From a virus: DNA of 64,000 bases. The translations under genes and the position numbers were made by a program. Numbering within the stretch: the stretch's first letter is position 1; each line of letters starts with the position of its first letter. The stretch covers positions 1 through 64,000 of IMG/VR virus record IMGVR_UViG_3300023184_004051, one strand, 5' to 3'. Below the pieces are notes generated by a model. That model searched no databases. It saw nothing but the letters and a program-made list of their open reading frames with translations, and was not told the origin of the DNA. Positions 36,349 through 38,493 of this stretch are shown here, piece after piece.

Positions 36349-38493
36349 GTGCTGAAACCGACAACGGATTTGACCGCCGTAAGCCTCTTTGCAGGGGTTG
36401 GCGGGTTTGACTTGGCATTAGAGCGACAAGGCGTAAAAGTCGTCGCTGCGGTGGAAATAGACAAGAACGCCAGAGGGGTTCTTGCACACCGTTTTCCAAA
36501 CAGCACGCTCTTTCCCGATGTCACGGAGGTCACAGGTGAGCAACTTATTTCAGCAGGATTTGTTCCCGAACGAGGCATCCTCACCGGAGGCTTCCCCTGC
36601 CAAGACCTCAGCGTTGCTGGAAAACGGGCCGGTTTGGCTGGCAAGCGTTCTGGCCTCTTTTGGGAAATCGCTCGCCTCATTGACGAACTCACGCCGCAAT
36701 ACTTCATCCTCGAAAATGTCCCCGGTCTTTTGTCATCTAACAGAGGACAAGACTTTGGAGCCGTTCTCGGGGCGCTGGTTGAGCGCGGGTACGGGGTCAC
36801 CTACCGAGTTTTGGATGCTCAATACTTTGGAGTCCCCCAACGCCGCCGTCGAGTGTTCATTGTCGGAAGTTTTGGAGATACCGGGGCCACAACTAGTGAA
36901 ATACTCGCTCTCTCCGAGGGCTTGTCAGGGTATCTTGAACAGAGCATCAAGAAGGAACAAGAAACTTCCACCACTCCTAAACGCCGCACTAGAAGCGGTG
37001 GCGCAGAAGGAAGCGTGACTTCACCACAAACGCTGGCATTTGACACGCAGTTTGGGTCTAACGCAAATGTGTTTGAGGACATTTCACCAACCCTGAAGGC
37101 TTCGCAGGCAGCGCCAAGTTTCACCGAAGTCGGTATGGAGCCGATTTTCTTTGACAGCGCCACTCACGGGGATGGCGCTCGTATTGCTGAAAAGACCATT
37201 CCAACTTTGACTTCCCGTATGGGAACGGGCGGGAATAACACCCCCCTTGTCGCCTACGCCGACCCAATCATCGGCATTGACCAAGAACTCAATGCCCGTG
37301 AGAACATCATTGGCTCGCTCGTCGCCGGTGCAAATAGCGGAACGCAAATACAGGCAGTTGCCTACTCGGTGCGTGAGGATGCACAGAGCAACACTTTCAG
37401 CGCAACCGAACTCTCGGCAGTCAACGCCTTGCAAGCCCACCAACCATCACCACAAAGTCATCACGCTCAAACCTTCATCGTGGAAGTCGAGCCGACGATT
37501 TTTCCAATCCAAGATGGTCGAGAGATGAACCACCAGCAGAACGGCATCGGCGTGGGTAGTGAAAACGACCCCGCCTACACCCTCCTTGCCACAGGCGGTC
37601 AAAGCATCGCAACAGTTTCGCCCGCAATCACCTCAACCGTTCGTCGCCTCACTCCAAAGGAGTGTGAGCGGCTTCAAGGATTTCCCACCGTAGAAAACAT
37701 TGGTATTATTGAGTGGTGTTCAGACCCTCTAAAGAACTATGTGGATGCGGAAAACCAAAATCCCAAGTCGCCATCACCTGCTTTGAGTGTCGCAAACGAA
37801 CAGCCGAGCGAGACTGCGAAATCTGCGGAAAACATTTCACCTACAAACGCTCATCAAACCGCCGAACCTGCTCTGGTCAATGTGGAAGTCAACTGCGAGG
37901 GCGAAATGCTGGAAATACACAGTCAAGGAAAGTTGATATTGTCTGTGAATACTGCGGAGAAGTCAAGCAGGTCAGCCCATCCTCTGCTAAACGCAGATTT
38001 TGTTCCACGGCTTGTGCTTACATTGCAAACTCTGGGTCTAATAACGCTCAATGGCAAGGTGGCATCACCAACGAGCGAGACAAGTTTGACAACAGTAAAG
38101 AGTGGCGTGCCGTTCGTAAGGCTGTCTGGCAACGAGATGACGCTACTTGCCAAAGATGTCGTATCCGATTTGACCATACAACACCCACCTACCACACCCA
38201 CCACATTGTTCCTTTCGGACACGAACCACTTAGAACAGAACTTACAAACCTTGTGTTGCTCTGTAATCCCTGCCATCATTGGGTTCACTCAAACGCCAAC
38301 CAACGGGGTGACTACTTACAGGTTCCACCTACGGGCGAAGCAACCGTGGACAGAGTTCCGCATTGACGAAAAGAAGGGTTTGATTTCACAAGCCGACGCT
38401 CCCCGCTACAAGCAAATGGGAAATGCCGTTGCTGTTCCCTGTGTCGAATGGATTGTGAAGCGGCTCGTTGAGATTGACAGGGCTACGAGGTGA
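36349..38493 (+). CDS. C5-cytosine DNA methyltransferase with nested HNH insertion
   Basis: A 714-residue frame. Residues 1-190 hold the standard C5 motifs: I (VSLFAGVGGFDLALE), IV (GGFPCQDLSVAGKR, catalytic Cys), VI (FILENVPG) and VIII (QRRRRVFIVG). A long variable region follows. Motif IX starts with VRRLTPKECERLQGFP (about 430-446) and motif X is RYKQMGNAVAVPCVEW near the end. Between them a stretch of about 215 residues (roughly 37687-38340) is low-complexity and looks unlike the family. This stretch is coding in another frame for an HNH endonuclease. Whether the enzyme still works is open. Leaderless GTG start. Confidence 0.85.
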   Translation: MLKPTTDLTAVSLFAGVGGFDLALERQGVKVVAAVEIDKNARGVLAHRFPNSTLFPDVTEVTGEQLISAGFVPERGILTGGFPCQDLSVAGKRAGLAGKRSGLFWEIARLIDELTPQYFILENVPGLLSSNRGQDFGAVLGALVERGYGVTYRVLDAQYFGVPQRRRRVFIVGSFGDTGATTSEILALSEGLSGYLEQSIKKEQETSTTPKRRTRSGGAEGSVTSPQTLAFDTQFGSNANVFEDISPTLKASQAAPSFTEVGMEPIFFDSATHGDGARIAEKTIPTLTSRMGTGGNNTPLVAYADPIIGIDQELNARENIIGSLVAGANSGTQIQAVAYSVREDAQSNTFSATELSAVNALQAHQPSPQSHHAQTFIVEVEPTIFPIQDGREMNHQQNGIGVGSENDPAYTLLATGGQSIATVSPAITSTVRRLTPKECERLQGFPTVENIGIIEWCSDPLKNYVDAENQNPKSPSPALSVANEQPSETAKSAENISPTNAHQTAEPALVNVEVNCEGEMLEIHSQGKLILSVNTAEKSSRSAHPLLNADFVPRLVLTLQTLGLITLNGKVASPTSETSLTTVKSGVPFVRLSGNEMTLLAKDVVSDLTIQHPPTTPTTLFLSDTNHLEQNLQTLCCSVIPAIIGFTQTPTNGVTTYRFHLRAKQPWTEFRIDEKKGLISQADAPRYKQMGNAVAVPCVEWIVKRLVEIDRATR
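37704..37709 (+). promoter_or_regulatory. Internal -10 (TATTAT) for the nested HNH gene
   Basis: TATTAT plus six bases precedes GTG 37716, the same leaderless geometry as elsewhere in the window. It lies inside the methyltransferase frame near the edge of the insert. Confidence 0.4.
37716..38366 (+). CDS. HNH homing-type endonuclease nested out of frame
   Basis: A 216-residue protein in a different frame from the surrounding methyltransferase. It carries zinc modules (CEICGKHFTYKRSSNRRTC-x-x-x-C and CEYCGEVKQ...RRFC-x-x-x-C), then EWRAVRKAVWQRDDATCQRCRIRFD, and the HNH core YHTHHIVPFGHEPLRTELTNLVLLCNPCHHWVHS. It is a typical mobile-type HNH endonuclease with DNA-binding zinc fingers. It ends with VDRVPH just before the methyltransferase frame resumes recognisable sequence (WTEFRIDEKKG). 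It most likely arrived as an insertion at a conserved methyltransferase motif. Confidence 0.85.
   Translation: MFRPSKELCGCGKPKSQVAITCFECRKRTAERDCEICGKHFTYKRSSNRRTCSGQCGSQLRGRNAGNTQSRKVDIVCEYCGEVKQVSPSSAKRRFCSTACAYIANSGSNNAQWQGGITNERDKFDNSKEWRAVRKAVWQRDDATCQRCRIRFDHTTPTYHTHHIVPFGHEPLRTELTNLVLLCNPCHHWVHSNANQRGDYLQVPPTGEATVDRVPH

Follow-up and report, generated by a model that had tools for sequence, protein, structure and literature searches.

Homing genes usually spare the gene that they invade by splicing or by an intergenic location; homing endonucleases borne by introns or inteins enter conserved coding sequence in this way while sparing the host protein. The ShiLan domain is an HNH endonuclease encoded out of frame within a mycobacteriophage methylase (Arsenault, Gosselin and Gogarten 2025, PMC11855218; first report PMC9957025). 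The host frame is open across the domain, splicing is undetectable, and leaderless translation has been suggested by the authors (PMC11855218). That study concerns mainly mycobacteriophages, mentions neither a promoter nor a test for selection, and leaves translation of the HNH gene open (PMC11855218).

The window analysed here comprises 64,000 nucleotides (positions 1 to 64,000 of IMG/VR virus record IMGVR_UViG_3300023184_004051) and contains an HNH gene nested in a C5-cytosine DNA methyltransferase gene (Table 1). As in the ShiLan domain, the HNH gene lies out of frame in a phage DNA methylase whose own frame is free of stops, there is no intron or intein signature, the distribution is patchy, the site falls at conserved residues, and the insert is predicted to project from the enzyme as a loop. 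However, ShiLan gp65 is apparently an N4/N6-type methylase (DPPY motif) entered between KPSYEPVCVAVKP and FEPIVVARKP, whereas in the window a C5-methyltransferase (PF00145) has received the insert between motifs IX and X, and the HNH family of the window matches the ShiLan HNH over a 68-amino-acid stretch only (E 1.5e-4). Because host family, site and HNH family differ, the window element is not the ShiLan domain proper; judged by sequence comparison, it is a relative in kind that represents a separate, broader family. In contrast to intron- and intein-borne homing genes, it gives no sign of RNA or protein splicing, and its compatibility with the host gene rests on dual coding. Very probably it is a homing element that is dual-coding and does not splice, with translation of the methyltransferase running straight through it.

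Table 1 Features of the nested locus in the window.
Feature	Position	Strand	Basis or remark
C5-cytosine DNA methyltransferase ORF, 714 aa, unbroken through the insert	36349..38493	+	Pfam PF00145 DNA_methylase, 1.2e-63
Insert of 663 nt separating motif IX (RRLTPKECERLQGF) from motif X (RYKQMGNAVAVP); net gain over L002, 654 nt	37684..38346	+	DNA homology to empty L002/L001
Host-frame strand VENIGIIEWC at the 5' edge, which overlaps the promoter box	37690..37719	+	AlphaFold2 strand 448–457, low to moderate confidence
Extended −10-like promoter TGg-TATTAT (putative), box 37704–37709, 6 nt before GTG 37716	37701..37709	+	Position shared by 9 of 17 relatives
HNH endonuclease ORF, 217 aa, −1 frame relative to the methyltransferase, likely start GTG 37716	37713..38366	+	Pfam HNH PF01844, 1.2e-7; start aligned with homologues
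Cys-rich zinc-finger region of the HNH protein (CxC..CxxC, CxxC..CxxxC, CxxC..CxxxC)	37740..38018	+	C9–C100 invariant in 16 homologues
HNH active-site region: HH 38199–38204, N 38247–38249, H 38274–38276	38199..38276	+	H162/H163/N178/H187 invariant in 16 homologues
Host-frame 3' edge strand YRFHLRAKQP	38314..38343	+	AlphaFold2 strand 656–665; alternating hydrophobic pattern
Methyltransferase C-terminal part with motif X (WTEFRIDEKKG...RYKQMGNAVAVPCVEWI)	38347..38493	+	Comparison with empty homologues

The anatomy of the locus is directly observed. The methyltransferase possesses motifs PCQ, ENV, IX and X, its N-terminal part is 94% identical to that of the empty homologue L002, and its frame corresponds to the HNH frame +1. 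The HNH protein, present as a single copy in the 108,670-base virus record, has the HH...N...H active site and the zinc-binding cysteines of an HNH endonuclease, and the second GTG of its ORF aligns with the start codon of its relatives. The Cys-rich region gives weak Pfam matches to zf-FCS_1 and I-TevI_ZnF, and the protein has a profile match to 5h0m (E 5e-7); a PDB fold search with the HNH model returned 5H0M with a probability of 1.0 but an E of 0.03, and nothing with E below 0.001. A preliminary description, based on the letters alone, had reported a complete HNH endonuclease in another frame of a methyltransferase that stays open across it, and both parts hold.

DNA homology between the window and L002 ends at 37683 and restarts at 38347; 663 nt stand in place of 9 nt, and the net gain is a multiple of three. 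The uninterrupted IMG/VR homologues L002, L001 and L003 read ...RRLTPMECERLQGF-D-D-G/N-WTAFRIDEKKGL... across the site, with the junction RRLTPMECERLQGFDDGWTAFRIDEKKG in L001–L003 and GFPDNWT in L004. The spacing from motif IX to GNAV is 735 nt in the window as against 51–84 nt in the IMG/VR relatives with a measurable motif pair, none of which has an insert between the two motifs. Since these uninterrupted homologues lack the region, the insert is derived from an empty site rather than native. The comparison thus fixes the edges of the extra stretch, put at about 650 bases in the preliminary description, and disposes of the objection that it might be native.

The same boundaries bear on two splicing explanations. 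A self-splicing group I or group II intron could hold the HNH ORF, with the open host frame incidental; group I introns of phages often carry HNH ORFs, and the conserved insertion site would fit. However, Rfam gave no match with an E of 1 or less for the window region, L009, L010 or L002, and the HNH ORF fills the insert (about 30 nt precede it, and in the window it passes the 3' edge), which leaves no space for an intron core. Splicing would also leave the stop avoidance in the 21 elements described below unexplained, and we regard an intron as highly unlikely. It had been named beforehand as a finding that would refute dual coding; that challenge is answered to the extent that no intron family is detected and the insert is fully coding. 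An intein, or another protein-spliced element in the host frame, would account for a stop-free in-frame insertion at a conserved protein motif, and inteins do occur in this methyltransferase family. But the inserts lack a Cys/Ser start, end in P or G instead of His-Asn and are followed by W or Y (in the window the insert begins P-T and ends in P, followed by W), and no Pfam intein or Hint match was obtained, so that protein splicing can for practical purposes be set aside. The methyltransferase of L222 (1–2300) apparently carries an intein at PCQ (VVHN before CQGFSF) together with a nested HNH gene in a dead frame, a combination that parallels ShiLan gp65, which has both element types.

Phage GenBank records gave no match to the insert DNA or to the host-frame peptide, and relatives were therefore taken from IMG/VR. 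An initial HNH-only scan with single-sequence patterns found no relatives; the family was opened by pairwise alignment of the window with L060. The L060 HNH protein is 47% identical to that of the window, and its gene sits at the same methyltransferase position with the host frame open, in an enzyme that is itself divergent. HNH-alignment scans with patterns blind to the host frame, with near-identical contigs counted once, yielded 21 distinct elements of the same HNH family at the same site (class 1), comprising the window and 20 others (L060, L094, L095, L096, L097/L098, L099/L100, L102, L103, L108, L112, L113, L114, L115/L116, L117, L120, L123, L211, L222, L250/L252 and L259/L260). Among 395 sampled genomes of the phylum to which the L123 bin belongs, no other case emerged at E up to 1e-20. 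In all 21 elements the methyltransferase site is the same, and the host frame lies at HNH +1, contains no stop, and is in frame on both sides, motif X included. The other offset contains 8–33 stops among the 16 elements scored. For these 16, Fisher-combined p values for stop avoidance are 1.7e-11 under a synonymous-codon null that uses the codons of each gene itself and 2.9e-22 under one that uses the codon usage of the locus, although they are only indicative because the elements share ancestry.

These relatives carry the argument, because the window by itself does not. Synonymous-codon reshuffling of its HNH gene leaves the host frame open in 12–18% of trials (P ~0.12–0.18), so the earlier contention that a chance stop-free frame of this length is unlikely fails for this locus alone, and the open frame was rejected as a sufficient argument there. 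The other offset, with 15 stops in the window, is practically never open in such reshuffles. The single-locus probability leaves room for a disrupted pseudogene, in which the methyltransferase was broken by the homing gene and kept an open frame merely by chance; the distant class-2 relative L129, inside a methyltransferase whose frame is closed by 13 stops, shows that disruptive insertion happens too. Against a pseudogene stand the 21 open frames with their combined p values, the intact flanking motifs IX and X, and two elements, L222 (two stops) and L120 (one stop), in which the HNH frame is dead and the host frame intact. Sequencing error or recoding is not excluded for the stop in L120; the reverse case, a dead host frame with an intact HNH gene, was not found among class-1 elements. 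We consider chance openness of a broken gene very unlikely. Alternatively, the endonuclease could split the host into two reassembling polypeptides, as is reportedly the case for the Aeh1 NrdA gene, and split C5-methyltransferases exist. Yet no host-frame stop separates the parts in any class-1 element, and the C-terminal part, of about 48 amino acids, has no evident start site, which makes a gene in pieces scarcely credible. The class-1 set indicates that selection keeps the methyltransferase frame free of stops, and it supports the earlier suggestion that production of the enzyme might survive the long insertion, translation itself being inferred.

A second HNH family (class 2) is nested after PQRRRRLFFV (motif VIII) in the cluster J mycobacteriophages Constella, KashFlow and Thibault, with Dallas providing the empty site. 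As in the window, the HNH gene lies out of frame, at the same offset, in an open C5-methyltransferase frame; HNH family and site differ. Constella is absent from the 2025 ShiLan paper (PMC11855218). Class-2 genes are likewise nested in open frames in L097/L098, L126, L127 and L130, and at motif VIII the host frame is open in five of five distinct elements (p 4e-6 and 3e-10). In L097/L098 a single methyltransferase contains two different nested HNH genes, one at motif VIII and the other between motifs IX and X; for both the host frame is open, within a frame of 892 codons. Four further insertions follow the pattern, two in C5-methyltransferases (L143, after ENVKGLLSH; L149, after ERLMSLDDNYT) and two in N4/N6-type methyltransferases (L188, at a PAHE.WW site of ShiLan type; L241, near SPPYFGLR).

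Open +1 frames are not a general property of these nucleases. An unbiased class-2 scan yielded 61 other HNH relatives, 58 of which have stops in that frame; the three exceptions, L143, L149 and L188, are all nested in DNA methyltransferases. Of the 80 loci from a scan with a C-terminal pattern, 24 have no +1 stop, and each of these belongs to a long open frame of a methyltransferase; one or more stops are present in each of the remaining 56.

The nested genes also carry putative expression signals of their own. In 9 of 17 class-1 elements the HNH start is preceded, at a distance of exactly 6 nt, by a TATAAT-like box with no more than one mismatch, compared with a mean of 0.32 and a maximum of 5 in 5,000 shuffles; an extended TG often accompanies the box. 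With this spacing the transcript start would fall at the HNH start codon, and the box in the window may imply a leaderless HNH mRNA. The TATTAT box of the preliminary description is thus present and shared in position by relatives, its promoter role being inferred. L103 and L123 have TAnnTTTG, the Bacteroidetes-type box, in front of the HNH gene; L114 and L117 have GGAG 8 nt upstream of the start, and in the class-2 elements L097 and L126 host arginine codons make AAGGAGG. All of these promoter and ribosome-binding-site readings are inferences from sequence. Programmed frameshifting from the methyltransferase into the HNH frame was considered and rejected as not needed, given the own start codon, the −10 box and an HNH-frame stop at 37710.

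Third codon positions of the HNH gene are second positions of the host frame. They differ at 0.49 of sites, versus 0.59 in single-coded methyltransferase, at 50–60% protein identity, and four-fold sites are identical at 0.465 versus 0.314 predicted by composition (0.397 versus 0.291 in the methyltransferase control). By these comparisons the constraint on the host peptide is modest, and remaining open appears to matter most. An alternating hydrophobic strand at the 3' edge (YRFHLRA, FTIGIKT, FAFELIS, YAINLSL and others) recurs in the 19 elements compared and is retained despite differing HNH tail lengths. AlphaFold2 predicts a confident methyltransferase core (residues 9–190 and 667–714), with pLDDT below 50 at residues 458–510 and 534–656, most of the insert; a looped-out insert is plausible from this model but is not demonstrated. 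The host-frame insert has no Pfam or PHROG match and, being weakly conserved and mostly of low predicted confidence, may be tolerated rather than functional.

The window element shares up to 58% identity with elements whose host methyltransferases are only about 42% identical, and the 94%-identical L002 is empty. Patchiness and spread among divergent methylases are thus observed at the level of sequence; homing itself, the cutting of an empty allele and copying into it, is inferred from distribution only. In the mechanism that we propose, an HNH homing gene has entered a phage C5-methyltransferase gene at a DNA motif of high conservation, in the stretch from motif IX to motif X, with an inserted length that is a multiple of three and the HNH protein written in the −1 frame. 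The nuclease would have a start of its own, served in the window by the extended −10 box and a leaderless mRNA, while selection keeps the methyltransferase frame open and ribosomes would read straight through. The product would be a methyltransferase with a surface insertion of about 220 amino acids, probably on a β-hairpin stalk. Cleavage of the empty site by the HNH protein, full-length translation and retained methyltransferase activity remain inferences.

A selfish gene thus appears to spread while its host gene survives, and with no splicing, by overprinting: the same DNA is read as a nuclease in one frame and, in the other, as an insertion that is tolerated. The set of relatives, with many uncultivated phages and a Bacteroidetes bin, turns a mycobacteriophage curiosity into a widespread strategy, and adds to the ShiLan work evidence of host-frame selection and of own expression signals. 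We lean towards the wider reading that dual-coding homing is general and has evolved repeatedly as a third way, alongside introns and inteins, for homing endonucleases to occupy conserved gene motifs without splicing, with about six sites, two unrelated DNA-methyltransferase superfamilies and several HNH lineages, a host peptide under selection (open frame, β-strand edges) and an active enlarged methyltransferase. The proposed answer to how the hidden nuclease is expressed is its own −10 box (leaderless mRNA) or a ribosome-binding site, sometimes made by host arginine codons. A host frame open at HNH +1 offers a quantitative signature for loci at which automated annotation easily reports just one of two overlapping genes.

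Several further features of these methyltransferase loci were noted. Two N4/N6-type DNA methyltransferase genes (PF01555; 38490–39497 and 39490–40593, + strand) lie directly 3' of the C5-methyltransferase gene in the window and form a three-methyltransferase cluster with it. A second alternate-frame ORF of 178 amino acids (36482–37018, + strand, +1 frame), with the C-terminal end KYSLSPRACQGILNRASRRNKKLPPLLNAALEAVAQ, overlaps the catalytic half of the C5-methyltransferase. This frame is free of stops over 125 codons in most homologous methyltransferases examined, frequently with the motif LSxKACxGILRRA, but has stops in L091, L093 and L097; this could be an overlapping gene that is conserved and unconnected with the HNH gene. 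In cluster J mycobacteriophages (L007, L008, L009 and L010) and in L004, the N-terminal and C-terminal parts of the methyltransferase lie in different frames, split in cluster J near a G-rich run (STLQGGG); phase variation, a programmed frameshift or a split enzyme is possible. ORFs that resemble further HNH genes (IKPK.YP..MV.. region), putative on sequence alone, overlap the start of the methyltransferase or lie directly against it in L001 (100–615) and L060 (313–1107).
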